Assembly (NCBI GenBank): GCA_026874595.1
Contig: CM049314.1
Span: 35,321,229 to 35,385,228, forward strand
Length of the DNA: 64,000 nucleotides
DNA from: Sipunculus nudus
Taxonomy: Eukaryota > Annelida > Sipuncula > Golfingiida > Sipunculidae
Direction: 5' to 3'
Every line of letters begins with the position of its first letter. Within the stretch, counting starts at the first letter, position 1. Shown piece after piece: positions 16,270 to 60,890 of the stretch. A program made the translations under genes and the position numbers. Under the pieces are notes generated by a model that was not told where the DNA came from, did not search any database, and saw only the letters and a program-made list of their open reading frames with translations.

Positions 16270-17465
16270 GAGTTTAGCTTTTCTGATTTTATGACAGGTG
16301 GCGCCACCTACATTCACGTTTACGCTGCAGACATCCAAGCTCATATCTCGGGAACCGTTTGACCGATCAGGAAATTTTTTTTTGCACAAATGTAGCCCTT
16401 GGAGAGCTTTATAACATACACAAAAAATGGTGGCGCCACCTGCAATCATGTTTGCACAGTGTCCATCTGTTCGTCTGCCTTGGGTTAAAATCACTCATAT
16501 CTCTGCAGTGACTTGACTAATTCACCTGAAATTTGGCATGCATATACATCCTGGATAGCTTTTCTGATTTGTGACAGGTGGCGCCACCTACATTCACGTT
16601 TACGCTGCAGACATCCAAGCTATTATCTCGGGAACCGTTTGACCGATCAGGAAAATTTTTTTTGCACAAATGTAGCCCTTGGAGAGCTTTATAACATACA
16701 CAAAAAATGGTGGCGCCACCTGCAACCATGTTTGCACAGTGTCCATCTGTTTGTCTGCCATGGGTTAAAATCACTCATATCTCTGCAGTGACTTGACTAA
16801 TTCACCTGAAATTTGGCATGCGTATACATCCTGGATAGCTTTTCTGATTTTATGACAGGTGGCGCCACCTACATTCAAGTTTACGCTGCAGACATCCAAG
16901 CTCATATCTCGGGAACCGTTTGACCGATCAGGAAAATTTTTTTGCCCAAATGTAGCCGTTGGAGAGCTTTATAACATACGCAAAACTGGTGGCGCAACCT
17001 GCAGCCATTTTTGCACAGCTCCTGTCTGTTTGTCTGCCATGGGATAAAATCACTCATATCTCGGCAGTGGTTTGACATATCTGGCTAAAATTTTGCAGGT
17101 TTATACATCCCCGACAGCTCTCTTGATTTTATGACAGGTGGAGCCACCTGCATTCTACTTTATGCAGCAGACATCCAAGCTCATATCTTGGGAACCGTTT
17201 GACCGATTGGGCCAAAGTTTTGCATGTGTATAGTTCTCACATAGCTCTTTATCATACGCAAAACTGGTGCCGTCACCTGCAACCATTTTTGCTCAGCGTC
17301 CATCTGATTGTCTGCCACGGGCTAAAATCACTCATATACATGAAGTGGATTGACTTATCTGCCTTAAATTTTGCATATGTATACAACTGGGACGGCTTTC
17401 TGGATTTTGTGGTAGGGGGGGGGGGGGGCAACCTTCATACACAATTTGGCTGCAGACATCCATGC
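16270..17465. repeat. 280-bp dimeric satellite, four-plus units with GGTGGCGCCACC palindromes
   Basis: Units repeat every 280-281 bp. Each is itself two diverged halves of about 140 bp, both starting at the perfect palindrome GGTGGCGCCACC (exact at 16297, 16429, 16577, 16709 and 16858) and sharing CTCATATCTC. Later units decay. The several ORFs over this block are artefacts. Confidence 0.85.
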
Positions 17466-18414
17466 TAATATGCAACACTTCACTCTATTTCCCCTTGCCA
17501 CTTCATCCATGCCTCACTTCACCCGTTCCACTCTGATTTAGGCGGATACACGTAGTCGCTTGTCGACTACCCGTATTCTAGTTTAGAAATAAATATGACT
17601 TAAGGGATGTACGGTCTTGGGACATATTAGTGACGACCTAAGCCGACGACCTAAAACTACATACATTTGGCGATTCATAGTGATGATGTCACAAAATGAT
17701 TCGCACGTCACACGTTACGTCACACATACGTCCCTCTAAAATCTCATGGATTAAAAAATGGCCATTTGAACCTTTTTGTAGCTCTTTCTAGTTTCTAGAG
17801 AGGTCAACACCGTTCCGGCGTCACAAAGGAACATATATATATTTCATGCTTATGTAGATCATCATAAATCCCTACATTACCTGCTTTGATAAAAGATAAT
17901 TGGTATCACATTGGCAAACAAAATATATTTGAAAGAAATGGACAGGGATGGTGGAACAGAATTTAGATGGCGGATTTAGACGAGGGCGCCCTACGGAATC
18001 TGGTGATGCAGAATAAATTTCGTATAATATCGCGCCAGATGCCTGGCACCATTAATTTCCTAACAATTCTGTATGCGAGAGCTATACAGTAACGTACTCA
18101 AGGCTTGTGTCGGGGTGCCGTGTCCCTTATTTTATAGGATCCTGCGATAAACAACTGTGAAGAAACTTCCTGGTTTCTACCGTCACGGTGTTGGTAACTT
18201 AAGCAAATGTATACACCCACTGGCATTGTATCTATTGAAAGTATTTTCAATGACCGGCCAATTATATAGACCAACACGCGTGTCGTATAAATGAGCGGGC
18301 CATACAGATCCTGTATAAAAAGCACATTTCTCTCAATTTTCCTAGCCTTTTCATGAAGATAATTCATACATCATGTGCTGCCTATTAGTGTCACGTTATG
18401 TTGATACGCGGTGG

Positions 18415-30775: not shown

Positions 30776-30921
30776 ACCTGCCCCACGTGAACCCGTCAAG
30801 TGTGGAGAGAATTGCAATGGACATTATACATGACATACATTACGTATTGGTGACGTATGTATGGCCATGCTGGTTCATTGTACTGAGATATAGAAAATTT
30901 ATACACAGAACAGTCGGTTCA

Positions 30922-30990
30922 CTCCGTTTGGGAATCGAACCCATGACTTTCCTATTGGCGGTCGTTTGCTAAACCACTTAGCTAACGGAG
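30922..30990 (-). repeat. tRNA-like Pol III promoter module (SINE head or tRNA pseudogene)
   Basis: The minus strand shows A box TAGCTAAGTGG and exact B box GGTTCGATTCC. The ends pair as a seven-base acceptor-like stem (CTCCGTT/AACGGAG), and CTAA/TTAG makes a D-like stem. A five-base-pair anticodon stem cannot be formed and the T stem has a mismatch. It is probably not a working tRNA. Confidence 0.5.
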
Positions 30991-31609
30991 TTCCTCAAAC
31001 TGTGTATAAGCACGCTTTTATAGGAACCAGCGAAGTGACATCATTGTCATGACGTCAGAGTACTACCTACTACAAGTCTCGCCACAGCGACTTTGCATGC
31101 CGCAGGGAGAACTGGTGGCCTTTTATGGCGTGAGGTATATATTTTTTAGATAGATGTATGAATTGCCGTGCTCATAGAAATGGAGCTTGATCATAAAATA
31201 AATGGTATACTCATATAAGTATCCTTCAGACTCCTTCGCAATCAGACTTAAAGAAGCAGAAGGTGTTAAATGCAAATCAGAACTTTTTTGGCAAAAGCGT
31301 TTACTGTTCTATTTTGCAGATATTTTAAGATCATAACAGGTCCTCCTTAAAAATTCATTACCTGTCTGACGTAACATTTCAGACAACAGAGATATTTTGC
31401 CCATTTTACACCAAATGTTTTCCTTATTAGAAGTAAATGACGACGGCCCCCTGGCCGGAAAACCAGATTTCTATATGTCACAATGGTAAAGAATTACATA
31501 ACATAGATTTTAATTATGGGGACCTAGACTACCTTATAAATTAATTGTATTGCTTTTTAACTTACCTTTTGAAAAGAAAATGTGTTAAATCTTGTTTTAA
31601 AATGGTAAC

Positions 31610-32942: not shown

Positions 32943-33465
32943 TCTGACATACGCACAGCCACACATCCCAATCCACACATTATTACTACTTGATTAATAA
33001 CATAAATATAATCTAGCACACACATACACTATCACTATGTGAATAAAAAATAAATATAAATATTTCCTTATTTCGAAACTTTTACTTGAAAATGACAAAT
33101 AAAAGTAAATATATTGGCATGATGTATTTAAATACTCCCTGAGCATCATTTAATAAGTAATATCACAACATGATTGCTTAATTGCTTAAATCAGTAAAGA
33201 AAAATGGTGATTGATAAAAAGTCTGCATGTTACAAACACCCAGTTTACGAGTATACATGAATTATACTGGTATATGAATACTGAACTTTTCCCTCAATCA
33301 CGATGTTTTAATATTGTCAAGTATAATCTGGTACGCGCGCCTCACAGATATCACGTAATGCGTCACTCGGTTTTTAACTGATGCAGATGTGTGCGTGTGA
33401 GTAGGAAACCGGTATCCGTTGGCTTTTATATCTGTCTTGAAACACTACAAACGAAAACAAAGATT

Positions 33466-33919: not shown

Positions 33920-36414
33920 TTAAACGTCATAAATTTTGAATATACTCTGAATATACAACTTATATAAAGATAAAACAAGTAAATGCTAAGTTAAATACAC
34001 GATGCGCTTGTTCATGTTGAAACCAAATGAATACCGTTCATATCGACGTCTTTCTATGAATTAAAAGGTACTCTTTAGGGTAGTTTTATTTACCATTAAT
34101 ATCAATAATTGAAGACAATGTCGAAGGCCCATTACCTTTTTATTTTCCATTTCAGTGACTATACGCATGATATCTTCATGCATCAAGTAGAAACCATTGT
34201 CGGGGTCTTCGGTGCTTCTTCCTGGATACCCGCAGGTGGTAGAAAAAGGCAAGCTATAATTCTTTAATGTGTTGAGGGTGTCGAGTACATCCTGAAAGCA
34301 TTACCACAGAAATGCATTAAGAATTGTGTATAAAAAAAAAACAGATGAAAGGATAAATAATTAGGACTAATAGAGCCCTGAAGGAAATAAAAACAAAATC
34401 AAAACGGATACCTTGTTTCTCTGGAGCCCATGACGATTACAGATATTTGTGAACTTTTGTTTATATGATCAAGACGGAAGTTACTTAACGGTTCCACGTG
34501 TCAAGTTACATTTCAGTGCATCCATGCGTCTAATTCATCCTTGTCAGTGAGAATTCTTGTTGGTACCGATACTCGTTATTCTCCCTGTTTAGTTAAAATC
34601 ATCTTCATTATAGTTACTCAGGTTCTGTTACCTCGATTTCGGTTTCTTGAAATCACTGGTTGATCAAACGTAACAGATCGGCCGATGTTACACAGCACGT
34701 GTGTTATTAGATACATTAGATACATCAATAAACAACGTGAATGATCTGACCAAATATTAGACCAATCGGGTGTTATATAACCAGTACAAACCTGTAAAGT
34801 AGACGTGCTTGGATCAATAGTCATATTTTCTAACGGTGTTGGTGGTGTGTAGTCGGGCGTGTCAGCATCGCATACATCATCTATCTCCACCAGATTGGAG
34901 TAGTCGCTACACTGTAGGTTAAAAGAAAAATAAGATGATTTATTCGGATTTCAGGACAGGGTAATGTTATGACACACACGGACACACACGCACGCGTTAT
35001 TTTACGGACTCCGAGAACAAGGAATATAATGCGAGCGGGAAAAAATTTTTTCTTCGCCTTCCCTTTTGAGACAAAAAAACGTGAAACTTTGCCAGTTTGC
35101 CAATAGGAATTGCTCCCAGAAGATTTCCTCAAAAAATGCTCCAGCACTTGACATGGTGTGTATGATAACCCACAATTAGTCAGTTTTCCATAGTTTAAAC
35201 AAATCTTGTAAGACCTTTCTGCCATTTCATAAATTACCGTATTGCCAATAAACTAGCCTTAAATTGCAGAAAATAGAATATTAATACACGAAAAATTGGA
35301 GTATTATTTTTTTGCAAGGCATTAGGGCCTGTAAAACAAATAATTGCACTACTTATATTTTTGAAAATGATAATTCGAAATGTCAGTGTAGTTATAAATT
35401 GCAAAATGGAAAATATCCGGCGGAGAGTACAGTGTAAACATAGCTTACGTAGTCGGGTAAATAGTCCCAGTGTATAGCTTCGGCCATGATTGTACATGTT
35501 TCTGAGAGACTTGCTGGCGCACAGGAGCAACCGGTGAAGAAAAGGATCCCCAGGATTATAACAGCTATAAAAGAAGAGTGTTTTTATTATTATCAACCAA
35601 AGACAATAGAAAAAGACCTACAATAATAATGCATTAATATTATGATAACAGACAGATCGGTCGTGTCAAAGAAATCATCTGTGTCACGGTCTGTCTGTCT
35701 GTCTGTCTATTCCTCTTTCTGTTCACAACTAATACTGAGCTTCAATTAAAACGAACTTGACTCACGGCATACAGACTTACCGGAACAACATTATTTAATA
35801 GCTACCTAAAACATAATAGCCATGGAAGGACATCACAGACAGTTAGTCATTGAATACACAGTTAACCAGGTAACGCGGGTGTCTGTCTACATAACGTACT
35901 GGACGAATCCTCTATAATTCAGTCAATTAACTACAACTTCTGTTATACTTTGATTTTTTAATAATTTAAAAGTAATTATGACTGTTCATGGACTCATACC
36001 TGTTAGGGAGCTTTAAGCATATGGATATTATATATTTTTCAGACTACCGTGACTCTTCAAGTCAAATTAAACATTGGAAACATTAAACAAATTAAACATT
36101 AAATATTTTAAAATTAAAAATCATCAACAATCATAATCATGTGACCACTCCAATAAAATAAATTTATATCTTTTTGCACTCCACTTGTGAAATAACGTTT
36201 TATGAGGTGAAATTAAAGTTTCAAGTATAGTTCACAAGTGGTCACCAAAGTTAACAGTATTAGAAACAAATCGTGTGATTTATATAAAATGTCCTAACTT
36301 AAGTTAAACTTTACTTATGGGATATCTTTCGAATAATTTAAAACCTGAGCTCTCTTTTTATGCACAAATCGTATTTAACTTACCTGTCATATTTAGTGTA
36401 TGCATTTTAACCAT
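33920..36414 (-). CDS. Secreted cytokine-like family protein, copy A (C-terminal truncation)
   Basis: Exons are 36414-36384, 35564-35449, 34911-34792, 34291-34136 and 33946-33920, with intron phases 1-0-0-0 and consensus GT-AG sites. The predicted protein is 149 residues. Exons 1-2 encode a signal peptide (hydrophobic VIILGILFFTG, then GCSCA before the likely cleavage). The mature part has four Cys, an acidic Pro-rich linker from exon 3 (TPDYTPPTP), N-glycosylation sequons NMT and NYS, and an amphipathic segment HEDIMRIVTEMENKK. In exon 5 a TTA seen in the other copies reads TAA, ending the protein after SIFKIYDV, ten residues early. I recognise no homolog. The five-exon layout resembles helical cytokine/hormone genes, which is inference only. 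Intron 1 is 819 bp. Confidence 0.68.
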
Positions 36415-36471
36415 CAAAGGTGTCACATCAAACGTATGCTTACAAGTTAAAGTCAATCATTATACATATGT

Positions 36472-36665
36472 GTATATATATATATAACTTACACGGAAGT
36501 AGAAACTTTGATCCAACGGGTGGGGAGAGCAGGAGATCGACTGATAACAGCTCACGCAGCGTTTTAGAGCTAATGGTGGGAGGCGTAAAATGGTTATGAT
36601 ATTTGTTTCTGTTTCTGTCATGAAAGGAAGGGTGATGAAGACGCTATTTTTATTTAAGGCTACCA
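36472..36665 (-). promoter_or_regulatory. Putative promoter of copy A
   Basis: A TATA-like stretch (about 36472-36487) lies 58-73 bp upstream of the ATG. At 36605-36620 the coding-strand motif TGACAGAAACAGAAAC fits GAAANNGAAA, the IRF/ISRE core, 191 bp upstream of the ATG. An ETS-type ACTTCCG precedes the TATA. The whole block is shared with copies B and C. Because introns are shared too, conservation alone does not prove function. Confidence 0.45.
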
Positions 36666-36922
36666 CTTAACCTCAATGACGTCACTATCTTTTTTACAAA
36701 TGATCAAAAATTTGACCTAAAGGTATCAAGTAGACATTAAAAGTAACCGTTTATAATGATTCTAGACCCAATATATTTTTAGACAACCGAGCGCGTATCA
36801 TGTGCAATTAATAATATACATATCGGAATAAATAATACTACGTAAACAAATGGTACTGTTAGATGGGTTTGATCACATAGTGTGAAACATTAAGGTTCAC
36901 AGTGGGAATAATGATGTTATTA

Positions 36923-37175
36923 CCACCGCAAAGGGCGGGGGTTATTTTTGCCATCGATGGTTTGTTTGTCTGTTTGTTGGATTGTTTGTTAGCAACTTTA
37001 CACAAAAAGTTATAAACAGATTTTGGTGAAACTTTACGAAAAGATACACAGCTAAATTTGGTGGGTGATCCGGATCACCATCTTGATCCAGGTTTTTTCA
37101 AAGGAAAAATGCCATATGGGGGTAATGAGGTGCCTTGGCCGAGGTCTGTGTTCTCCGAGTGATTTTTAGTTTTGT
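36923..37175 (+). repeat. Dispersed repeat R1
   Basis: Same family, from ACCACCGCAAAGGG to TCTCCGAGTGATTTTTAG. It lies 0.5 kb upstream of copy A, and related copies sit at the same place upstream of copies B and C. The insertion therefore predates the gene duplications. Confidence 0.65.
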
Positions 37176-37799
37176 TTCGTGCAACACACGAGTAGACTGT
37201 ACTCCTAAATTATAGCCCTTAACGTTATTTAAACCAATTACGGTTGATTATTTTATGTAATTTATTATTTGTAAGTCAAAGACAGGTATGGATGTTCAGT
37301 AGATTTGATTGTTTTAATTGTGTCTTTGTAGTTGATACATTTTAAAATTTAACAGTAGAATTTTATAAATTTTTTTTGTATGACAATAAAAAGTATTTTT
37401 ATAAAGGCTATGTAATATTCATTTAAAGTAGGATAATTTCCAATTAAACTTGGAAAATACTCATTCAGCGGAAATTTGGCAAAAGAAACGGTGACAGATA
37501 AAATGCTTTGAAAATACCCCTTTTTGGTGGAGATCATGAATCACTGGTGTAGTTTTGTAATCATCCCAATACTTTTGAAGACATAATGTCACAATGCATA
37601 TGCTTCAATTCCAATATAAAAATACAAAACGGAACAATCATTTTCAAAAATGTTCTACAATGATGGCATATTATATATATAGGACCTAATTAAACACTCT
37701 CAATCAAAACATTTTTTTATGAGTCATAAAGAATTACGTGATAAATACAAATATAAATATAACTTCCTTATATATGCTAGTTTATTCAAAGTGATACCA

Positions 37800-38460
37800 C
37801 AAAGATAGAGAAAGATTGTAAAGGAGGTAGGTCTACATATGCCTGCACAAATAGAATTAAATTTTAATATGAATGCTTTTCTTAATACCCAGAAATGGAT
37901 AAAGCAGATTTAATATTATTGACAAACACATAAATGCACCAAAAAGGCAATACTTTAATAGGTAATTGATTTAAGTTGAAAAAAGACTTTATCAGGGATT
38001 TTCTTAATTGTATAAAACTACAATATCATCTTAACTTTGCATGTTTGAATATTATATATTACACAGAAGGCTTACTATGAATACTTTCCTTAATAAATTG
38101 AATATTTTTGATACAAGTAAATGTACTTTTTGTGGTGAAATAGATGAAACCCTGAAACACATTTTCTGGTAATCCCCTTTTACTGTTATATTATAGACAG
38201 AGATCTCGAGAGCCAGAGTAAATTCTCCAATAGATTAGCAATGGAGCTGTCTAGCAGCACTTCTCTTCTTGGAAATAGTAAGTTGATGTTACAAGAAAAA
38301 CAACACTCCAGGGCTTCATATTATTTATAAATGAGATATATTTTATTGAAAAAAAGATGAAAACCAAACGATGCAAACTCGGTAAACAATCAGGAGAATG
38401 GGAAAACCTACTCTGTTTTATTTTCGGAATAGTAATAAGTATATTCCATTTTTGCATCAA
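37800..38460 (+). mobile_element. Decayed LINE 3' fragment
   Basis: Around 38117-38169 the plus strand encodes SKCTFCGEIDETLKHIFW, the zinc-binding motif (CxxC...HxxFW) found at the C-terminus of L1-type LINE reverse transcriptases. Further downstream one reading frame gives NEIYFIEKKMKTKRC, resembling the usual C-terminal tail. Stops and frameshifts are frequent. It lies in the upstream flank of copy A and interrupts similarity to the other array units. Confidence 0.45.
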
Positions 38461-38469
38461 CCTAATGAT

Positions 38470-40070
38470 AAATTAAATGTATTAAGTTTCAAATGAGCCA
38501 TATAACTATATGACAGCAATAGCTACCATGCAAGTGGCATGTATGTATTCATTCTCTTTAGCAACTATGTATGTCCTGTTGTTCGATTCCTTTGTCATTG
38601 TGTATCTGTACTGTAAGTGTTATTAGTCTCTATGTGTACGATGCATGGTTGTTACTTGTCACTTTTTTAAGATAAAATAAATGCACAGGGCCTTCTGAAT
38701 ATTCCAGTGGCCTTTGTAAGCAGGAGAATATTTATAAAGGCATTTTTTAAATCCTATAGTAGATTTGTTTTAAGGTAAAATACATATGCAAACAACACTT
38801 TTGGAAGCCCATAATAAAATAAAATAATATTTGGCGTGCAGCGAGTGTGACAGTTAGGAAAAGTAGCCCCATTAGTCCCATAAATCCTAACTGACAGTTT
38901 TTTTTTAAATAATAAAAACAGACACTTGTGGTAGGGTAGACCCTGTATTGCCTCTGTGATAAATACACATGCCCTGCTTCATGCATTCACAGGCTCAGCG
39001 CACGGGGCTAGGATTGATCAGATACTGATTCTGCTCATACTTAATATTCCTGTCTCTCCTTAAATTGTTTTAAGGAAATGTATACACAGATCAGCCGAAC
39101 AATTCTGGACGATCATTCTATTTTGACCATAAAATCAGGGGTTAAATAGCACCCTACAAGGACAAACCGCCCCTTTTTAAAGATATTTTTTTCCTTTTTT
39201 TTGTGGGGGGGGGGGGGATTGGGTGTAAAAGGCCTAAGTTTTCGGTAGTATTGTTGTTATATTGTGCTATAACTAGAGTTGTTGCATACATTTGAGTACT
39301 TCCGGGTGGCTGGAAAATGTTACACGTTATTTGAATCGACCGGTTTATTTAAAAGAGGTGTATGTGTGTTGGAATGGGGAAGTGAGGAATATATTTTGTA
39401 GCGAGATGTCTCATTAGCCTTACTTGTTTATTGAATAAATATAGAATATGAAACGGGTACTTTTCCGGGCCTTGCATTGGTTAATGCTTTACCATGAGTA
39501 GGCGGCAGGATTTTTTAAGAAAGATACTGCAGATATGACTTTTTTATTTCTCTATCTTGTAAAACTGATATTTCTAATTTTAAATAAAACTTTAATATAT
39601 TCTTATGGGTAATTATGTGGGGTATTTTTATATATATTATATATATAATAATATATATATATATTTATATATAGACATCAGTTATATAGCCATCTTTGTC
39701 AAATATATTGAACCCTACCTAAATCCTGGCTACGTCCCTGTTTAATATATATATCCAACAAAAGCAAACGATGGCGGGAAAATCAAAAGGTATAACGCAT
39801 AGTAGTATAAAAAAAACCCTGCCGGATTTAGTGAAAAACTAAAATCGAAGAATGATGAAACGCAGGCGTATCCACAGTCATTATATTTTTCATGCGACAG
39901 AAAAAAATCTTCCTAAAAGGAAACACTTTCGGTGTTTTATTAATACATTTAATTTGAATCAGGCAGGTGGTAATTTACTTTTCGAAAATTGTGATACAAG
40001 GCTTAGCTGCAAATATGATTTGGAATGCAAGTCTGATTTGTCTCCTGACGACTTTGTATCGCAATAATGA
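38470..40070. other. Array flank between copies A and B
   Basis: Duplicated non-coding flank, including the GGGCCTTCTGAATAT and CTCAGCGCACGGGGC landmarks and a short G run at 39.2 kb. No gene. Confidence 0.6.
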
Positions 40071-40463
40071 ATAATATTATAAATTTGAAAAATCTTCACA
40101 AATCATATTTTAATGTATTATATCATTATTTTGAAATTTCGGTATCTGCAGTACACGAGTACGGGTTAACCACGAATTTCTAGCGGGTTCATCATCGATA
40201 TGCGTTGATCAGATAACACCAACAGCACCGATATCAATGATTAAATGACCTGCTAACATGATCTCTGTCTATCAACTGTGTTATCAGCACGACAAGTGTA
40301 TATGTTAGTTCTTCACTTTATGAACGTAATTCAAAGATGATTCGGGCTGAAAATGTAACCAGCCCGTTGTCTTTATGTCATCTATATTGTGAGAGTTAAT
40401 AAGTTAGCCAGGGAATTTTTTCGTGATTTTCGGACATATTGCAAATAATATGCAAGTTATTAC

Positions 40464-40735
40464 CTTCGCTTAGCGTTTCGCCAGCGTTGGTTTGTTTGTC
40501 GTTCTGCCTGTCAGTTTGCAACATTACTTAAAAGGTTATAAAGTATTTTAAAGTATTTTTTTTAGGATAGATTGGGAACAATACAAGGAAAAATTGGCTA
40601 AATCATGGGGATGATCCCGCTAAACATATTGATCTAGGAACTGTTTAAAGGAACATTCTGCATTTCTGACAATATCATTTGCGGTGAATTAGCTGCCTTG
40701 GCGGAGGTCTACGCTAGGTGCTCTTCTAGTTGGAG
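40464..40735 (+). repeat. Dispersed repeat R1
   Basis: Counterpart of the 32.66-kb copy one array unit later. Blocks GTTTGCAACATTACTTAAAA and GGCGGAGGTCTACGC are recognisable. Confidence 0.6.
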
Positions 40736-41358
40736 AGTGTATTGTCTAACACACGCACATCCACATACCTCCACCTGCACATATGCTACATGATTAATCA
40801 TATATATATATATAATCGAGCACACACATATACTCTTACCATGTAAATAAAAAATAAAATTGAGTAAATCCTTTTTTTCGGAACCTTTACTTTAAAATGA
40901 CAAATAAAAGTAAATATATTGGCATGGTGTATTTAAATACACATTGAGCATCATTCAATAAATAATATCACAACCCGATTGCTAAAATGGTAAAACCATT
41001 ATAGAAAAATAATAATTGATAAAAAATCTGCATGGTACAAACACCCAGTAACAGGTATACATAAATTATACTGGCATATGAATGTTGAACTTTTCCTGAA
41101 TCACGATGTCTTGATGTTGTCATGTATTATCTTGTATGCCCGCCTCACAGATATCACGTAATGTGTGACGCGGTTTTTCATGGATGCAGCTGTGTCCGTG
41201 TGAGTTGGAAACAGGTATCCGTTGGACCTGATGTCTGTCTTGAAACACTACAAAGGAAAACCAAGATTAGTTATTTTATATATATTTTTTATTATATATA
41301 TTTTTATATTTTATAAATTTTATATATTTTATATATTAATAATAAAAAAAACTGATGA

Positions 41359-41359
<1 letters not shown>

Positions 41360-41407
<48 letters not shown>
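41360..41407. repeat. (AT)n array beside the foldback element
   Basis: AT run ending 40 bp before the 32-bp inverted repeat. Confidence 0.95.
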
Positions 41408-41409
<2 letters not shown>

Positions 41410-41446
41410 GCATGTAGCCGTGTTAGTTTCTTGGTGTATAGATAAA

Positions 41447-41795
41447 AGGATGAAGACGCCGTACTGTTGACTAACTGTCTAATTCATCCACGAGCTTCTG
41501 AAGCCTATAGCTCCTTCATCAGGTGTCAAGTGGAAAGGTATAGAAATCGGCTGTATATATAGGTTAGATAAACAATATTATTGACCATAATGCATAGTAT
41601 AGTGTGATGGATCTGTGATTGGCTACTCTGAATTTGTACCATGTTGACCCGGGTTCCGAGTGTGTCATTGTTATTTACCATAATGCTCGGTTATGTTTAG
41701 TTCATGTCCTCTGACACATTAAAGGTTTGAAGTTCATAATGCTCATGCTCGTGGTTGAATTAAACAGTTAGTCAACACTAAGGCGTCTTCATCCT
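41447..41795. mobile_element. Foldback element with 32-bp inverted repeats and Penelope-like terminal sequence
   Basis: 41447-41478 and 41764-41795 are near-perfect 32-bp inverted repeats beginning AGGATGAAGACGCC. The minus strand next to the first repeat reads CTGATGAAGGAGCTATAGG, a string I associate with terminal repeats of Penelope-like elements. It is flanked by (AT)n arrays on both sides and lies in the copy A/B interval only. Confidence 0.5.
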
Positions 41796-41799
41796 GTTT

Positions 41800-41800
41800 T

Positions 41801-41846
<46 letters not shown>

Positions 41847-41897
41847 CAAGACAGATTCGCAATCACAATCTCTAGTCCCCCATGTGAAGATGTCAGC

Positions 41898-41942
<45 letters not shown>

Positions 41943-41969
41943 TTATATATAAATATATATATATATATA

Positions 41970-42023
<54 letters not shown>

Positions 42024-42025
42024 GA
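41800..42025. repeat. (AT)n / (CT)n compound array 3' of copy B
   Basis: Three AT runs with a (CT)n segment near 41970-42000, ending 40 bp from the copy B stop codon. Confidence 0.95.
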
Positions 42026-42065
42026 TAATGTGTGATGCACAGAGCGACAAAGGTAACACATACAT

Positions 42066-44252
42066 TTAAAATCTCGCATCCAAATAACCAAGTGGTAAAA
42101 CGTCAAGAATTGTGAATATACCCTGAATATACAACTTGTATAAAGTTGATTGAAAAATTCAGTACTTTCCCAATTAAACTATACGATGCGCTCGATCATG
42201 TTGAACCCAAATGAAATACCGTACATATCGACCTCTCTATGAATTAAAAGTTATTCTTTTACGGTAGTGTTATTTTACAATGAATATCAATAATCAACCA
42301 CGCTGGTGAATACCCATTACCTTTTTATCTGCCATTTGAGTGACTACACGTATAATATCTTTATGCATCAAGTAGAAATCCTTGTCGGGGTCCTCGGTGC
42401 TTCTTCCTGGATACCCGCAGGTGGTAGAAAAAGGCAAGCTATAATTCTTTAATGTGTTGAGGGTGTCGAGTACATCCTGAAAGCATTACCACATTAATGC
42501 ATTAAGAATTGTATATGAAACATAAAAACAAATGAAAGGAAAAAATAAATCAGGACTTACAGAGCCCAGAAGGAAATAAAAACAAAATCAAAACAGACAC
42601 TTTTTTCTCCGGAATCCACGAGCATGACAGATATTTGTAAATTTTTGTTTATATAATCAGAACTGGAGATACATAATGATTCCATGTGTCAAGTTACATT
42701 TCAGTGCATCCATGCGTCTAATGCATCCTGGTCAGTGAGAACTCTTGTATGTAAAGATAGTCATTATTTCCCCTGTTGAGTTGAAAGCATCTTCATTATA
42801 GCTTCTCAGAATTTGTTACCTTGTTTACAGTTTCTTGATTTAACTAGCTGACCAAACGTAACAAAACGGCCCATGTTACAGAGCACGTGTTATTAGATAC
42901 ATTAGATACATTACAAAACAGCGTGTATTATCTGACCGAAAATTAGACCAATCAGATGTTAAAATAAAAGTACAAACTTGTAAAGCAGACGTGTTTGAAT
43001 CAATATTCATATTCTCAAACGGTGTTGGTGGTGTGTAGTCGGCCGGGTCAGCATCGCATGCATCATCTAACTCCACCAGATCGGAATAGTCGTCACACTG
43101 TAGGTTATAAGAAAATAAGATGATTTATTCAGATTTTAGGACAGGATAACTGTTATGACACAAACGGACACACACACACGCTTTGTTTTATAGAACAACC
43201 AAAATAAAGCGAGCTGGCACTTCGTTTATTTTCCCTTTCGAGACAAAACACGTGTTGCCAGTTTGTCTAGAAAAATTGCTCCTAGAGGAATTGTTCAACA
43301 AAAATGTTCTAGTTCTTGGTGTGTATGATAACCCACAATTTACTTATTTCTGATAGTTTTAACAACACATGTAGGACCTTTCTGTCATTTCACAAATTGC
43401 AATATTGTCAATGAACTAGTCTTGAATTGCAGTTAAATGTTAATCCAAGAAATTTGGAGCGGCGATCCGTAATAAAATCTTTTTGCAAGGCCTTGGGCTT
43501 TTTAGAAATAATTGCTTTTCTGATAATTTTTAGATTAATAATTCGGCAGGTCACTGTAGATATAAATTGCAAAAGTGAAAAAAAAATCCGGCGCAGAGTA
43601 CAGCGTGAACATAGCTTACGTAATTTGGTAAATAGTCCAAGTGTATAGCTTCGGCCATGATTGTACATGTTTTTGTGAGACTTGCTGGCGCACAGGAGCA
43701 ACCGGCGAAGAAAAGGATCCCCAGGATTATAACAGCTATAAAAAGAAGAGTGTTTTTATTATTATCGACCAAAGACAATAGAAAAAGACCTATAATAATA
43801 ATGTATAAATATCACGATAACAGACAGATCGGTCGTGTCAAAGATATCATCTGTGTCACGGTCTGTCTGTCTGTCTCTCCCTCTCTATCTGTCCAAAATA
43901 ACTACTTAACTGCAATTAAACCAACATCTTCACGCATACATACTTACTGAACCAAATCTTTGATAGCTACTCAAAACATTGAAGCCGTGGAAAGACATCA
44001 CAGACAGTTAAGTCGTTAAATACACATAAACCGTGTTACCCGGGTGCCTGTCAACATAATTTACAGGACATATCCTCTATAATTCTGTCAATAACTACTA
44101 TCCTGTTATACTCTGACTTTTTTGTCTTTTTGATTATTAAATTATTTTAACAAAAAATTAATTATGATTGTTCATGGACCTAAGGAAATCTTTCTAATAA
44201 GTCAAAACTCCAGCAACTTACCTTTCATATTTGTTGTATATATTGTAACCAT
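42066..44252 (-). CDS. Secreted cytokine-like family protein, copy B (intact)
   Basis: Exons are 44252-44222, 43735-43620, 43097-42978, 42476-42321 and 42122-42066. All junctions are in phase (1-0-0-0), giving 159 residues plus stop. Start MVTIYTTNMK lies on exon 1. Exon 2 supplies the hydrophobic core VIILGILFFAG and a likely cleavage after CSCA. The mature protein is about 133 residues with four Cys (KTCTIM, NYCDDY, DACDAD, TTCGYP), sequons NTS and NYS, and predicted helical stretches TCTIMAEAIHLDYL, ALQDVLDTLNTLKN and HKDIIRVVTQMADKK. The last exon encodes GIFTILDVLPLGYLDARF. This is the only copy of the three with no disabling change, so it is the best candidate for a working gene. Function is unknown; a secreted signalling ligand is the leading idea, and a secreted effector or hormone is an alternative. 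Confidence 0.75.
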
Positions 44253-44308
44253 CAAAGGTGTCACATCAAACGTATGCTAACAAGTAACTGTCAATCATTA
44301 TATTTCAG

Positions 44309-44515
44309 TATATATATAAGAGAGCTAAACGGAAGTAGAAACTTTGATTCAGCGGGTGGGGAGAACAGGAGATCGACTGATAACAGCTCACGCAGCGTTT
44401 TATGGCTTCATTTGTTGGAGGCGTAAAAATGGTTATGATATTTGTTTCTGTTTCTGTCATGAAAGGAAGGATGATGAAGACGCTGTTTTTATTGAAGGCT
44501 ACCATTTTACCTCAA
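44309..44515 (-). promoter_or_regulatory. Putative promoter of copy B
   Basis: The TATATATA element at 44309-44318 sits 57-66 bp upstream of the ATG. The GAAACAGAAAC motif (44444-44459 on the opposite strand) lies 192 bp upstream, almost the same spacing as in copy A. A GTAAGT-like string next to the TATA in copies A and C is absent here, which argues against it being a conserved splice donor of a 5' exon. Confidence 0.45.
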
Positions 44516-44756
44516 TATCACATCTTTTTTATCTAGTGATCGAAGACTTCCCATAAGGTGTCAGAGAGACATTAACATTAACCCGCTTATAATGATTCTA
44601 GACCCAGTAGGTTTTTGGAGAAATCGAGCCCGCATCCATGTGCGATTGATTATATAGATATCGTAATAAATATAATTGGGTAAACGAATGGTACAAGTAA
44701 ATGGGCATGTTCAAATAATTTAAAAGTTTTAGGTTCACAGTGGATATATTGATATT

Positions 44757-45098
44757 TTTACCACCGCCAAGGAGACTGGGTTATGTTTTTGCCGGCGTTG
44801 ATATGTTTGTCTGCTTGTTTGATCGTCTGTTTGCGACATTGCTCAAAAAGTCATGACGGATTTTGAAGAAACTTTCAGGATAGATACAATGATAAATTTT
44901 GAGGGCGATCCGGATCGACATCTGGATCCAGTAATTTGTTATTAACGGATTTTGAAGAAACTGTCAGGATAGATACAATGATAAATTTTGGATCCAGGAT
45001 TTTTAAAGAAAAAATAATGCATTTCGGACAAAGCCATATGGGGGTAATGAGGTGCCTTGCCGGAGGTCTGCGCTCTCTGAGTGATCTTCTAGTTTTGT
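44757..45098 (+). repeat. Dispersed repeat R1 with internal duplication
   Basis: Upstream of copy B. The GATTTTGAAGAAACTTTCAGGATAG block occurs twice, at about 44858 and 44945, so this copy carries an internal tandem duplication of about 85 bp. Confidence 0.65.
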
Positions 45099-45256
45099 TT
45101 CTTGCAGGACACGAGTAAATTGTACTCCTAAATTATAGCCCTTAACATGATCTAAACCAAAACGGTTGATTTGTATATGTAACTAATTATATATATGTCA
45201 GAAAGAGGGATGAATGTTCCGTAGATTTGTTTGTTTGTATACAATATATTTTAAGA

Positions 45257-45257
<1 letters not shown>

Positions 45258-45306
<49 letters not shown>

Positions 45307-45353
45307 CTTTGACCAATTCTGATAGAGAAAGGATTCTACCATACGCCTTTCAG

Positions 45354-45400
<47 letters not shown>

Positions 45401-45402
45401 TT
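45258..45402. repeat. Paired (AT)n arrays with duplicated spacer
   Basis: Two AT runs (45258-45303 and 45356-45400) are each followed by the same sequence, TTCTGATAGAGAAAGGATTC. The array and its flank were therefore duplicated together. A single counterpart is at 52.82-52.90 kb. Confidence 0.85.
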
Positions 45403-45727
45403 TGTCCAATTCTGATAGAGAAAGGATTCTACCATACGCCTTTTAAATTCAAAAGATTTCATGAAACTTAAATTATTCCTACATGCTTTCTTTCAAACTA
45501 ATCAGATTAATCTGGAATAAAATTGTTTAAATTGTAAAGAAAGGGATTTCATTTACTATTGCACAGAAACACCTAAAGCTCTCTTTATCGGTCACTGTTA
45601 ACACTCATTCACCCGTAAACATACGTGATCAATCAAAACAAAAGTGATTAAGTTACACTAATGTTATCTGCCCTGCTATCTCAGCTATAACATCCGCTTC
45701 TGAGCACCCACAGAAACATATTAATAA

Positions 45728-46336
45728 CTGCTATGCTAAATACAGCGGATACGGAAACCCCCGTTTGTAAATAAATCTGTCTCCCTGGTTAACTCGTCTC
45801 TCCGGGATTGTCATAACCCAGCCATTGGGGAAAGGAAAACTACCCAAGCCGCGGGCTTTAAACTTAATAAAATGTTTATAAATGCTATCATTTGTTTTTT
45901 GATAGAAGGAAAAATAACAAAATATATAAGTACAACATTATATGAAGTGTACTAGCTATTGATCAACTTAAAAACTGGAGTGTTTAGATTCTTTGTGTGT
46001 CCTTCAATGCTAAATACAGCGGATACGGATACCCCCGTTTGTAAATAAATCTGTCTCCCTGGTTAACTCGTCTCTCCGGGATTGTCATAACCCAGCCATT
46101 GGGGAAAGGAAAACTACCCAAGCCGCGGGCCTCATAGGGTCGTGTCGTGTCAGCTCTGAGGTTACTCCCCGTGGTAGGCCTTCATTATTTTAAACTTAAT
46201 AAAATGTTTATAAATGCTATCATTTGTTTTTGGATAGAAGGAAAAATAACAAAATATATAAGTACAACATTATATGTGTACTAGCTATTGATCAACTTAA
46301 AAACTGGAGTGTTTAGATTCTTTGTGTGTCCTTCAG
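45728..46336. repeat. Local tandem duplication of about 300 bp upstream of copy B
   Basis: The block starting TGCTATGCTAAATACAGCGG, and the following AACTTAATAAAATGTTTATA block, occur twice in a row with very few differences. One difference is an extra segment of about 55 bp in the second copy (46130-46190). The other array units carry it once. Confidence 0.75.
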
Positions 46337-46560
46337 GACTAATTTACCAAACGAAAGAGACGAAAAAGATTGAGGCTTTTTATATACAATTTATGCTTCT
46401 CTGAAGCATGTGAAAAATGAAAGCTAAGAACATGAAAATTTATCTAAAATTCGATATAAACCAACTTGTTAAGCATTAGTTGTCTTGTTTTTATATGTTT
46501 AATGAAATACTTATATTTAAGTAAATCTTCTGAATATTTATTTTCAGTTTAGTCGCATAT

Positions 46561-46602
<42 letters not shown>

Positions 46603-46606
<4 letters not shown>

Positions 46607-47452
46607 ACGGAACCTTATAATAACAAATCACATAATCGCGAGGAGTATAAGATTTGTTATGGAGATAAAAATATTAGATTCCGCAACACTAGGCAGCGTG
46701 AAATTTCTAGTGGAATGAATAACGAAATCAGTGTTTTTTTTGTAAATAAAAATTATAATTTATTCTTAGAAAAATCCAAACATTACAATACACTAAATCA
46801 ATACAATTACAAAGTTTTTAAGACTATTAAGATTATTATTATTACAATAATAAAAATATACATCAGAGAGTCCGAAACCTAGGCTTTGATTTCTGGATAC
46901 CACGACTGTCACAGTGCAACAAGAGCCTTTTAACACAAATAATCCACGTGAACAATTCCAGTAAACCTTCCCGGTGAATAGCCAATTTAATCTCGAAGAC
47001 AATATGTTTTAATTCAGGAATGAAGTCCAGGTAAAATCCCAAAGGCAAACTGAAGACAATTTGTATAAAATCTGTATGCAAACTCTGTATAAAGTCTGTA
47101 TAAAGTGCGTAGAATATCTGTATGGAATTATCGGAGTAGGTTCCAAGACTGACGAGAAAGTCGCACCCTTTAGTGCCCGCTTGATTTTTTCTTCCTCTCG
47201 GCTCCAAACACAGCACCTATTCATATCTTTTCCCACGAAGTCTAGAAACTGTAAGGCACGGAAAATTCCAAAGAACAGACTCGAAGCATTTAGACACAAC
47301 GAACGCGCTGTTTGTTTACACTTTGCGAGCAAGCCAGAGTTCAACCAGTGCGGTCCCCTTAGCAACGCACAGGGCTTGCGCCTAATACGAATCTGAATGC
47401 CAAGCACATGTTAAACTATGTAAAATACTGAGCATAAGAAACAAATACATGT

Positions 47453-47456
<4 letters not shown>
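46603..47456. mobile_element. Candidate solo LTR, 854 bp, between two (AT)n arrays
   Basis: The segment begins TGTTACGGAACC and ends ATGTAACA, so it has TG...CA ends with a six-base inverted match TGTTAC/GTAACA. It is flanked by ATAT on both sides, compatible with a 4-bp duplication but uninformative inside (AT)n. Base composition is richer in GC than the surroundings. It interrupts the copy B upstream flank and is absent from the corresponding parts of the other units. Its two long minus-strand ORFs are probably chance. Confidence 0.45.
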
Positions 47457-47501
<45 letters not shown>

Positions 47502-47780
47502 ACACTGCTTATTATTTAATGAATGATTGCCTGATTGGACATGACTGGTTGTTTAGATGGTCCTATATTTCACCGGTTACTAGTCTGCTTATTTGGAAGG
47601 TGTTAAAACACTCTACAAAAGATAGTACGCAATTCAATGTACTCATATTAGTAATATTACTATTAGTAATATTACGCTTTTGTTAGTAAAGGACTGTAAA
47701 TGAAGAAACAATTCCCCCCCCCCCCAAAAAAAAAATCACAGGGCCTTCTGAATATACCAGTGGTCTTGGGTTGATCGAGG

Positions 47781-47882
<102 letters not shown>

Positions 47883-48265
47883 GTCATTGTTTCGTCTTAT
47901 ATAAGAACTTTTTCAAGGGAAATGGGAAAATCGGTAAGATTGCTTATGTGCAGCGTTTAAAAGAAGGGAGTATAAACAGAAGAGAGTAGTCCCATTAGTC
48001 CCGCAATCATCAACTAAAAATTAATGGTGTTAGGGTAGACCCTGTATTGCTTCTGGAAAAAACACAGACACCCTGTATCATGCATGCAAAGGCTCAGCGC
48101 ACGGGGCTACGATTAACCGGAAACCGACCGTACTCGCACTTTATACTTTATCTTTTCTTGTTTTTAGGAAAAGTAGGTACAGATCCGGCAACAAATTTGG
48201 ACTGTCAGTCTATTTTGAATATAAAATAAGGTGTTAAATAGCACCCGACTAGGGTACACCGCTCC

Positions 48266-48392
48266 GTTTTGTGGGGGGCTGGGGTGGGGCGGGGGTTGGT
48301 AGGGTGGTGGTGGTAGAGCGGGGGTCGGTTGTTTTGGGGGCGGGGGTGGTGGTTGAGCGTGGGGGGGGGGGGGGGGGGGAGGGGGGCGGTGT
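48266..48392 (+). other. G-rich cluster with quadruplex potential
   Basis: About 125 bp of G runs, including one run of roughly 18 G. Homologous positions in other units (39.2 and 60.44 kb) hold shorter G runs preceded by T runs, so this expanded locally. Confidence 0.6.
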
Positions 48393-49475
48393 TAGCGAAA
48401 GAGCCTTAAGGTTTCAGTTGATTTGTCGCTATCTTGTGCTAAAATCATACTTATGTGATACGTTTGAGTACTTCCGGGTTGCTAGAAAATCTTACACGTA
48501 ATTTGAATAGCCTATAGCTAAAACCATAGTCATGCCATATTTGTGTACTTCCAGGTTGCTAAAAGCTACATGATTTATAACAAATATATAATCGAGCACA
48601 CACATATACTATTACCATATAATTAAAAAAATAATATATATATATATATCCTTTTCTTCGGAACCTTTACTTGAAAATGACAAATAAAAGTTTACATATA
48701 TCGGCATGATTTATTAAAATACACATTGAGCATCATCGAATAAATAATATCACAACCCGATTGCTAAAAAGCTAATATCATTATAGAAAAATAATTATTG
48801 ATAAAAAGTGCGATTGCTAAAAACACCCAGGTTACAAGCATATATGAATTATACTGGCAAATGAATGTTGATCGTTTTTCTGAATCACTATGTCTTGATG
48901 CTGTATGATATCACGTAATGTGTGACGCGGTTTTTTATGGATGCAGCTGTGTCCGTGTGAGTTGGAAACAGGTATCCATTGGATTTGATATCTGTCTTGA
49001 AACACTACAAACGAAAACCACGATTATTTATATATTTATAATACAATACTGATGATAATACCACACACTGAAATAGATATATTTATATATATATAATTAT
49101 ACAGAATGAAAACTCAACAATCTTGGTTACATGTGACACAACAGGACATTAACATACATACCATCTTGGTCGCATATCTCTGTAACACGTAGATACCGGT
49201 ATGATCTAGTCAATTTTAGCCAGACAGCCTTACCTGATGAGTGCAACAACATGTTGCATGAAACTACGTGGTAGTAAAATGTCCGGAAATAATTGATTCG
49301 TCCTTATTTTGTATAATTATAAAGCTTTGGTGAAATGCCATAGAGCACTTTAGTAGTTGTTGATTGCAGAAAATCAGAAAAAAAACTATTCACACACACA
49401 TACACATATATACACACGACCAGCTGCCTCACACCATCTCTTTGGCTAGTCAACCATGTGATGATGTCAGCGAGA

Positions 49476-49534
<59 letters not shown>

Positions 49535-49576
49535 CAAAGGAGTGATGCAGAGAGAGAGACAGAGGTACGACAAAAT

Positions 49577-52122
49577 TTAAAATCTCGCATCCAAGCAACC
49601 AAGTGGTAAAACGTCAAAATTTGTGAATATACCCTGAATATACAACTTATATGAAGTTGATAATAGAATTGAGAATGCTCAGTTAACTACACGATGTTCT
49701 TGTTCATGATAAAACCAAATGAAATACCGTGCATGTTGACGTCTCTCTATGAATTTAAAGTTACTCTTACAGGGCAGTGTTATTTTTACAATACATATGA
49801 ATGATGAAAGACAATGGCGAATGCCCTTGACCTTTTTATTTGCCATTTGAGTGACTACACGCATTATATCTTTAAGCATCAAGTAGAAATCCTTGTCGGG
49901 GTCTTCGGTGCTTTTTCCTGGATAACCGCAGGTGGTAGAAAAAGGTAAGCTATAATTCTTTAATGTGTTGAGGGTGTCGACCACATCCTGAAAGTATAAC
50001 CACAATAATGCAATAAGTATTGAATAAGAAAACAAAAACAGAAGAAGGTATAATAAATCAGGACATTATAGAGCCCAGAAGGAAATAAAACCCAAATCGG
50101 CACATTGTTTCTTTGGATCCTTTGACGATGACAGATGTTTGCGAACTATTGTTTATATAATCAGGACTGATGGCACTAAACGATTTCATCTGTTACTTTA
50201 CATCTTAGTGCATCCATGCGTCTAATGCATCCTTGTCAGTGAGAACTTTTGTTAGTAAATATAATCATTGTTCTCCATGTTGAAATAAAAGCTTCTTCAT
50301 TATAGCTTTTTAGATTCTGTTACCGTGATTTCGGTTTCTTGAAATCACTGGTTGACTAAACGTAACATCGGCCCATGTTACACAGCACGTGTGTTATTAG
50401 ATACATTAGATACATCAATAAACAGCGTGAATTATCTGGCAGAAAATCAAACCAATCAGGTGTTATTATAAAAGTAAAAACCTGTAAAGTAGACGTGCTT
50501 GATTCAATATTCATATTCTCAAACGGTGTGGTGGTGTGTAGTCGGCCGGGTCAGCATGGTATGCATGGTCTATCTCCACTAGATCGGAGTAGTCGTCACA
50601 CTGTAAGTTAAAAGAAAATAAGATGAATATTCAGATTTCAGAACAGGATAACTGTTATGACACACACGGGCACACACACACACGCGTTGTTTTATGGACT
50701 CTAAGAACAAGGAATATAATGCTAGCATGCAATACTTTTCCTTTGCATTCGTTCTCATGACAAAACACGTGGAATTTTGCCAATTTGTCCAGAAGAATTC
50801 CTCCTAGAGGATTTCCTAAAAAAGGCCCAAGTTCTTGAAATGGTGGGTATCATAACCCACAATTTAGTCATCTATATTTTTAAAACTCAATTTAAAAAAA
50901 AAATTACAATATTTATTAATGAACTAACCTTAATTTGCAGATAAAGAATTAATCCACGAAAAATTGGAGCATCGATTGTACAATATTTATGCAAGGCCTT
51001 AGGGCCCAATAAAAATAATTGCATTTCTTTTACATGTATTTATGAAATTAGTAATTCAAAAGGTTACTGTAGTTATTAACTGGAACAGTGTAAACATGCA
51101 GCGGGGAGTACAGTTTGAACATAGCTTACGTAGTCGGGTAAATATTCATAGTGTATATCTTCGGCCATGAATGTACATTTGTCTGTGAGACTTGGTAGAG
51201 CAGAGGAGCAACCGGTGAAGAAAAGAATTCCCAGGATTAAAACAACTATGAAAGAAGAGTGTATTTATTATTATCTACCAAAGACAATAGAAAAAAGACC
51301 TATAATAATGATTTAATAATATTAAGATAACAAAGAAATCATCTGTGTCACGGTCTGTCTGTCTATCTCTCTCTCTGTCCACAACTGCTACTGAGCTACA
51401 ATTAAAACGAACTTGAATCACGGCATACCGGAAGTACCGGAACAACATTTTAATAGCTACGCAAACCATAATAGCCGTGTAAGGCTATCACAGACAGTTA
51501 GCCGTTGAATACACAGTTAACCAGGTAACGCTGGTGTCTGTCAACATAACGTACCGCATGAATCCTCTATAATTCTGGCATTTAACTATACAACTTCTGT
51601 TTAATATGATTTTTATTTGTCTTATTTTTTATTAAATTATGAAAGTAAATTCTCACAATAGAATATTATCACATGAAAGTAATTGTGATTGTGCATAGAC
51701 TCATTTCTGTTTGAGAGCTTTAAGCATACGAATATTATATATTTTTTAGACTACCATGTCTTTTCCAGGCAAATTAAACAATTTCACATTGGAAAAATTA
51801 AAATAATTAAACATTAAATATTTAAAAATAAAAACTCACCAACAGTCAGAAACACATGACCACTCCAATAAAATAAACTTATATATCTTCGCACCCCACT
51901 TGTAAAATAACGTTTTATGAGGTTAAATCAAACGTTTCAAGTATAGTTTAGAAGTCGTCACTTTAATTAATAGTATTAGAAAGAAATCATGTCATTTATA
52001 TAAAATGTCCAAACTAAAGTTAAACTTCACTTACAGGATATCTTTCTAATAAGATAAAACCCCAGCTCATCATTGATAGATTAATACTTACCGTTTATAG
52101 TTATTTTATGCATTTTTACCAT
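49577..52122 (-). pseudogene. Secreted cytokine-like family protein, copy C (frameshifted)
   Basis: Exons are 52122-52092, 51245-51130, 50600-50482, 49987-49832 and 49633-49577. Splice sites and exons 1, 2, 4 and 5 are intact (ending GIFTNFDVLPLGCLDARF). Exon 3 is 119 bp instead of 120, because one T in the GGTGTTGGTGG run of the plus strand is missing. The frame shifts inside the TPP linker and hits a stop soon after. The Cys of the DDxCDAD motif is Tyr here (HAYHAD), and a Cys appears in exon 5 (PLGC instead of PLGY). The exon 4 donor is the weaker GTCAAG. It may be a recent pseudogene, or the deletion may be an assembly error. Confidence 0.65.
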
Positions 52123-52179: not shown

Positions 52180-52385
52180 ATATGTATAAATATAACTTAC
52201 ACGGAAGTAGAAACTTTGATCCAGCTGGTGGGGAGCGCAAGAGATCGACTGATAATGGCTCACGGAGCGTTATACGGCTTTAATGGTGGGAGGCGTAAAA
52301 ATGATCATGACACTCGTTGTTTCTGTTTCTGTCATGAAAGGATGGGTAATGAAGACGCTTTTTTATATTTACGACTACCACTTTA
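52180..52385 (-). promoter_or_regulatory. Putative promoter of copy C
   Basis: The block is the same as in copies A and B. It has an AT-rich TATA-like stretch near 52181-52195 and the GAAACAGAAAC motif at 52319-52334, 197 bp upstream of the ATG. Motif and spacing persist although the coding region is frameshifted. Confidence 0.4.
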
Positions 52386-58830: not shown

Positions 58831-59960
58831 TGATACAGTTAAATATTATATGTAACTATTTATATATGTCAGAAAGAGGTGTGAATTTTCCTTAGGTTAT
58901 ACCATGTTAAATATTGTTTTTCCATTTAATATATTTTAAAATCATATAAATATACCTTGTTTAATTCTGATAAAAAATGTATTATACTTTTTGCTTTTTT
59001 TATACATTGTACTTATAAGCCTTTTCGATTCACGAGTTTTCATGAAACTTAATTATGTATGCTATCTTTATTTATATTTCTTCAAAGCTAATCAGATAAA
59101 CATGCAAAACGTGTTAAAACTGTATAGAAAGGGATTTCATTTCGATTTCACATATATGTAAACCTATGTTTATCGGTATGCACTCATGCACCTTCTAATT
59201 AAACAAAAGTGATTAATCAAAACGAAAGTAGTTACACTGATGAAATCTGCCCTGCAATCTCAGCTATATACAACCATTCCTGAGCACCCATAGAAACATT
59301 AACTACTGCCATGTTAAATTCAGCGTATGCAGATATCCTTGTTTGTCTTCTTGGTAATAATATCAATCAGGCATCATCCTATTGATGAACGGAAAAGTAC
59401 CGAAGCTGCGGGCGTCTAAGTTCCGTGCCATGTCAACTCTAAGGTTACTTGCCCAGGTCGGCTATCATTATTTCTATACGAACTGAAATGCTTATAAATG
59501 CTGTTTGGTGATTGTTTTTGGATAGAAAGAAGATGAACAATAAAAATTAATTCAACATTAAAGATGCTTACATGTAGATCAACATAAGATACTGGGTGTG
59601 TACATTCTTTGTTTTGATCAAAACGAAACAGACGGAATGAATATTAAGGGTTTTTCATGTTCATTTCACGCATCTCCGCAGCATGTGAAAAATGAAAGCT
59701 AAAAACATGAAAGTATTTCTAAAATTCTATCTGTACAACCTTGTTTCTCGATTTCTCGATGAAATAACTGACATATTTATATATACATGAATCCCTTAAA
59801 CATATATTTCCAGTTTAGTCGCATATATATATAAATATATATAAGACACTGCTTGTTGTTTTATAAAAGATCCCCTGATCGGAACTGTATTTATATTTAG
59901 ATGGTCGTAAATCTGTATATTTTAGCGGTTACCAGTCTGCCTATTTTCATGGTGTTTAAA

Positions 59961-60020
<60 letters not shown>

Positions 60021-60890
60021 ATATATATATATATATATCTTGTATTAGAGTAGTTTCAAGGGAAATGCAATATGCATACAACAGTTTTGGTAGGTCATAA
60101 TGAAAACAATAACATCTGACATGTCTGCGTATGTGCCGGGTAAAAAGAAGTGAGTGTGACAGTTGAGAAAAAACAAAAATAAACACAGACGTTTGTGGTA
60201 GTGTAGACCCTATTATGTCTGTGATAAACACAGAGACCCTGCTTCAGGCACTCACCGGCTCAGCGCACGGGGCAACGATAAATCAGAAACTAACGCTACT
60301 CACACTTCATATTTCTATCTCTTCTTGTTTTTAGGCAAATTATGCACAAATCAGCCGAAACTGGCGGAATGTCAGTCTATTTTGACTACAAAATAAGGTG
60401 TTAAATAGCACTCGACCAGGGCACACCGCACCTTTTTTTTCGGGGGGGGGGGGTAAAAGAGACCTAAATCATCAGTTGTATTGTTGCTTTCGGATGCTAT
60501 TACTAGGGTTGTAGCATAAATTTGAATTTGAGTATAATTTGAGAATTATGAGTATAAAAAATATTGTTTTTTCACTCCCTTGTGTAGAAAACTGTTAAAA
60601 CTTAAATTTTGTTCTTACCTGAACATGTCTAGCTGAAAAACATTTTCAAGTAATGATCAACTGTTTATCTTAATCCGAATTTTATCACGTGTAAATAGAC
60701 AATAGGCTTGAGTGTCTTCTGTATGTTTAATTTGCAACGTGGGTCATTATTCCCTTGTCAGCTAGCCATTGATTTGTGCTCTGCTACAATAAAATGTGTT
60801 AGAGTCCTCTTATGTTTTATGTTACTCTACTGACAGTAATAATGTTCTAAATGGGATGTATCATGTTTACTGCATCATCCTCACATGTTA
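58830..60890. repeat. Fourth array unit lacking a gene
   Basis: From about 58.83 kb the sequence matches the region that starts about 0.9 kb upstream of copy B (TATATGTCAGAAAGAGG). It continues through the homologous flanks to about 60.9 kb. At the position where exon 1 should lie (about 57.9 kb) I see no exon, signal peptide or promoter block. Either the gene was lost or the duplication breakpoint fell upstream of it. Confidence 0.6.
59963..60039. repeat. (AT)n array in the gene-less fourth unit
   Basis: Run of about 77 bp, corresponding in position to the array at 47.8 kb. Confidence 0.95.

Follow-up and report, generated by a model that had tools for sequence, protein, structure and literature searches.

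What do the short, regularly spliced exons repeated along this stretch of the Sipunculus nudus genome encode, and to which kind of system do their products belong? The window, by which we mean the whole stretch of 64,000 nucleotides that was analysed (contig CM049314.1, positions 35,321,229 to 35,385,228), had been described from its letters as carrying a tandem family of three five-exon genes for a small secreted protein of no recognised family. In this work, we re-examined the gene models, searched the genome for further members, compared their upstream regions, and weighed the resulting gene plan against those of known secreted proteins.

Exon structure of the tandem copies and replacement of the last exon

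The minus strand carries three tandem units, referred to as copies A, B and C, with a spacing of 7.5-8.2 kb, and self-comparison of the window revealed a similarity of ~78-80% among them across 2.2 kb. Exons 1 to 4 were recovered in all three copies on the minus strand, at the coordinates collected in Table 1 and with GT-AG borders, and the signal-peptide-like start of copies A-C was borne out together with them. The preliminary description had the same 159-codon plan occurring three times, which does not apply to copy C, where exon 3 measures 119 nt versus 120 nt, introducing a frameshift, and where the plan is also broken at exon 5 (117 nt versus 147 nt). Similarly, of the statement that all splice sites agree across copies, the positions do agree, but two donors of copy C deviate, namely that of exon 3 (GTTTTT in C, GTTTGT in A and B) and that of exon 4 (GTCAAG in C, GTAATG in A and B). 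Copy C is probably a pseudogene, given its frameshifted exon 3 and shortened exon 5. A read-through past exon 4 of this copy (open reading frame 49679-50035) was considered and discarded, being absent from A and B as judged by eye.

Table 1. Family features located in the window, numbered from its first letter
Copy	Feature	Position	Strand	Remarks
A	Exon 1	36384..36414	-	10 codons + 1 nt, phase 1
A	Exon 2	35449..35564	-	signal peptide end and putative helix A segment, phase 0
A	Exon 3	34792..34911	-	acidic Pro-containing putative A-B loop, phase 0
A	Exon 4	34136..34291	-	putative helix B and C segments, phase 0
A	Exon 5 (CF)	33298..33444	-	true exon 5, putative helix D segment, stop
A	LDARF exon 5	33920..33946	-	rejected, stop inside
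A	GAAACAGAAA (IRF/ISRE core)	36606..36615	-	-201 from ATG
B	Exon 1	44222..44252	-	
B	Exon 2	43620..43735	-	
B	Exon 3	42978..43097	-	
B	Exon 4	42321..42476	-	
B	Exon 5 (CF)	41101..41247	-	true exon 5
B	LDARF exon 5	42066..42122	-	rejected
B	GAAACAGAAA (IRF/ISRE core)	44445..44454	-	-202 from ATG
C	Exon 1	52092..52122	-	
C	Exon 2	51130..51245	-	
C	Exon 3	50482..50600	-	119 nt, frameshift
C	Exon 4	49832..49987	-	
C	Exon 5	48888..49004	-	shortened, 117 nt
C	LDARF exon 5	49577..49633	-	rejected
C	GAAACAGAAA (IRF/ISRE core)	52320..52329	-	-207 from ATG

The last exon required a different assignment. Each gene had been closed with a short exon ending in LDARF; with this exon, copy A ends after 149 codons at a stop at 33920-33922, copy B comprises 159 codons, and the frame is lost in copy C. 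B and C differ at four nucleotides of this exon, each of which alters a residue (by eye), and a whole-genome search with the 159-codon B protein matched the LDARF stretch in B itself only. Alignment of the three units revealed a further conserved block downstream, preceded by the acceptor TTTGTAG, corresponding to an exon that lies 0.7-1.1 kb past exon 4, starts with the residues CF and ends in a stop, and that encodes 48 residues in A and in B. In this CF exon, 14.5 silent and 8.5 replacement changes separate A from B (dS 0.65, dN 0.08), an excess of silent changes with P=0.00012. Because a homologous exon recurs after exon 4 in six further members of the family (D, E, F, G, H and J, see below), which was taken as decisive, the CF exon was adopted as the true exon 5. 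The protein length was corrected from 159 to 189 residues for each of A and B, both of which are intact. An inverted repeat at 41440-41802 in copy B, with 56-nt arms that are 89% complementary and 251 nt apart, sits between the rejected LDARF exon and the true exon 5.

Between A and B, dN is 0.095 as against 0.186-0.231 in introns 1-3. Within exons 2-4, 7 of the 32 changes between these copies are silent, which amounts to no silent excess (P=0.53) and is the outcome that an absence of selection on the protein would give, although silent and replacement rates both reach only some 50% of that in the introns; this pattern could stem from fast evolution or from gene conversion.

Other features of the window include tandem-repeat arrays at 13318-14165 and 16275-17471, with units of ~180 and ~280 nt according to self-matches, and a tRNA-like Rfam match at 30920-30991 on the minus strand (38.6 bits) that was not called by ARAGORN and is possibly a SINE remnant. 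At 58834-60451, the intergenic portion of the tandem unit occurs a fourth time, as a remnant, and tblastn with A and B retrieved no fourth gene beside it. Ten open frames of the window compared with Pfam matched three families, none over the cut-off, and none of 46 pattern matches to viral contigs was confirmed. The CpG observed/expected ratio of the window is 0.83.

A wider family and its sequence matches

The family had been counted as three genes. Searches of the species' own genome (1.43 Gb), using B, E and H as queries, brought at least six further members, designated D, E, F, G, H and J. Members D, E, F and G are found on the chromosome of the window (C9) at 35.26-35.59 Mb; a different chromosome, C1, carries H and J. 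Beyond A and B, complete five-exon models were obtained for D, E, F and H, of which E, F and H are intact and D carries a stop in exon 2. For G, exons 4 and 5 alone were recognised, the former interrupted by a stop, and the reading of J covered the same two exons. Broken members are therefore C, D and, in its exon 4, G.

The six complete models (A, B, D, E, F and H) all display intron phases 1-0-0-0, with a first exon of 4-31 nt, an exon 3 of 105-120 nt and an exon 4 of 150-168 nt. E, F and H each share 27% identity with B, and the alignment of A, B, E, F and H contains 25 invariant columns, of which five are Cys. These intact members measure 182-191 residues, and masses of 18.5-19.8 kDa and pI values of 4.7-7.8 were obtained for them; a hydrophobic N-terminus, judged by eye, is completed in exon 2, and the mature part comprises ~160-170 residues with 5-6 Cys, the cleavage site being assumed. 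A dibasic KR follows closely on the signal peptide, at residues 24-25, in E and F and is absent in A, B and H; it might delimit a short propeptide in the former two.

A lone exon-5-like stretch, most similar to that of F, was located at C9:33976248-33976394 on the plus strand, 1.3 Mb from the cluster; the 3.5 kb examined around it contained no other family exon, and it was not counted as a gene. Weak matches on C3, C4, C5, C6, C7, C11, C14, C15, C16 and at C1:72.77 Mb were likewise kept outside the member count.

The earlier view of small secreted proteins assembled from short exons and belonging to no recognised family was upheld, as A and B matched no Pfam family. When five members were compared with Pfam, three families appeared at chance level (E 0.11-0.2, one member each); NCBIfam yielded no family, and the best match among PDB sequences had E 0.11. 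The family is unrecognised in prokaryote, viral and PDB-type libraries, and uncharacterised eukaryotic protein records of it may well exist. Within the accessible portions of open-licence PMC papers, no such invertebrate family is reported besides the Upd ligands of insects and an interferon-like protein of the oyster.

An interferon-response-type element upstream of the genes

In copies A-C, the sequence GAAACAGAAA is embedded in a conserved block ~200 nt upstream of the ATG. Its IRF/ISRE core, GAAANNGAAA, was found on either strand between -100 and -257 in the proximal promoter of all seven members with a located first exon (A, B, C, D, E, F and H; G and J were left out of this count), compared with a background of 5.55% of random 300-nt windows drawn from the window and the further loci examined. 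Since the core had been noticed before being tested, all 4-N2-4 dyads were then run unselected, with A-C treated as one group and with random sets of five windows. GAAANNGAAA was the sole 4-N2-4 dyad common to the upstream regions of all seven members. Five random windows are expected to have 0.00015 equally rare dyads in common, and such a dyad was shared in 2 of 5000 random sets. Further, a TATA-like box is present at -66 to -80 in five of the seven regions. As far as sequence can tell, this upstream layout is that of an IRF-driven immune gene.

Elsewhere in the genome, IRF domains scored over the cut-off at two loci and the JAK FERM_F2 domain at one, both counts being lower bounds. Taken with the CpG ratio given above, these domains are what one would look for in an invertebrate genome. 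A six-frame unspliced scan with PF09240 (IL6Ra-bind) found no class I receptor and gave one sub-threshold match, on C16, which was dropped after reading as it did not have the look of a receptor.

Comparison with helical cytokines and other secreted proteins

Four conserved amphipathic segments with helical periodicity were distinguished, exon 4 containing two of them and exons 2 and 5 one each; four or more amphipathic windows were reached in 13 of 2000 column shuffles, at a threshold chosen by us. Chou-Fasman values were mixed, with beta exceeding helix along the greater part of the last segment and in places within the other three. The genes of EPO, GH/prolactin, IL-6 and G-CSF have a tiny phase-1 exon 1 followed by introns of phase 0; their exon 2 encodes the end of the signal peptide and helix A, exon 3 the A-B loop, exon 4 helices B and C, and exon 5 helix D. 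In the present family, all six complete models combine five coding exons, phases 1-0-0-0 and a tiny first exon, with products of ~190 residues as in these class I cytokines, and the signal peptide precedes a mature part within the ~160-190 residues of this class, as judged by eye and with cleavage assumed. The A, loop, B plus C and D segments would be distributed over exons 2-5 in the same manner as in the vertebrate plan. The likeness is one of gene plan and periodicity, without detectable sequence similarity, and neither Pfam nor PDB sequences gave a match to a named cytokine family; this lack is compatible with class I membership, because helical cytokine families often share no detectable similarity with one another. 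The IRF/ISRE core in seven of seven promoters is a difference, as such an element is not known to be typical of the EPO and GH genes. For avian GH, a gene of five exons and four introns has been described, in which exon 1 is very short (PMC10016047).

On these grounds, the reading that we favour, at somewhat better than even probability, is that the family encodes secreted four-helix cytokines of the class I long-chain plan under IRF control. Infection or nucleic-acid sensing would lead to IRF activation, and the activated IRF would bind GAAANNGAAA near the TATA box; the secreted protein would then fold as an up-up-down-down bundle and engage a class I-type receptor (IL6R/Domeless-like or CRLF3-like), resulting in JAK signalling. 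Weighing against this reading are the mixed Chou-Fasman values, the lack of a silent excess in exons 2-4 between A and B, the negative searches for a cytokine family match and for a class I receptor, and the broken members C, D and G.

The duplication in tandem, the presence of broken copies and the rapid change of the protein are in keeping with an immune ligand. The IRF-type promoter, the fast change in exons 2-4, the tandem and broken copies and the absence of a family match would also suit a fast-evolving, IRF-induced immune effector or binding protein that is not a cytokine; however, the exon-to-segment plan and the phases closely match the class I plan outlined above, and we regard such an effector as unlikely. 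Sperm lysins, which are reproductive proteins that evolve fast and are helical, secreted and duplicated, offer another model, in line with the helical periodicity together with the tandem copies and fast change. Lysins are strongly basic, whereas the five intact members are acidic to slightly basic (pI 4.7-7.8) and have 5-6 mature Cys; moreover, one would hardly expect an IRF-type element in the promoter of such a protein, and we consider this model very improbable here.

A class II helical cytokine of the interferon/IL-10 type, that is, an interferon homologue, would be in keeping with the IRF-type element in seven of seven upstream regions, the helical periodicity and the five exons; fish type I interferons are likewise clustered five-exon genes for secreted helical proteins, with the IRF-type control of vertebrate interferon genes. 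Nevertheless, the introns of fish type I interferon genes are four in number and all of phase 0 (PMC4929537; 0-0-0-0 versus 1-0-0-0 here), whereas intron 1 is of phase 1 in 6/6 of our models; the family is therefore set apart from class II. The lack of a Pfam match also speaks against an interferon homologue, which we consider quite unlikely. Among invertebrate proteins, compared by description only, the oyster CgIFNLP is a secreted immune protein acting in a pathway with IRF-1 and IRF-8, and differs in its ~15 kDa band (PMC8218723) versus 18.5-19.8 kDa here. The insect Upd proteins, ligands of Domeless, would be the functional counterpart, again by description only, as secreted invertebrate ligands of a class I-type receptor (PMC13203501).

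If the class I reading holds, these genes may bear on receptors for which ligands are being sought. A 2026 survey traces IL6R to molluscs, together with JAK and STAT, and IL6 to vertebrates only, and suggests alternative IL6R ligands (PMC13203501). CRLF3, another class I receptor, is described as present in every major eumetazoan group and as an orphan with respect to endogenous ligands (PMC8063046), and one study anticipates that its insect ligand will resemble EPO in some structural features (PMC6797617). We tentatively put forward a narrower proposal, possible though to be held with more doubt than belief, that the family members could be the missing endogenous ligands for which an invertebrate class I receptor, either IL6R/Domeless-like or CRLF3, has been waiting; induced by IRF, they would do the work of interferon with the gene plan of EPO, GH and IL-6. 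If true, the class I cytokine gene would predate the protostome/vertebrate split, and a sequence-defined candidate combining a class I plan with an interferon-type element would allow the IL6R and CRLF3 ligand questions to become binding experiments.
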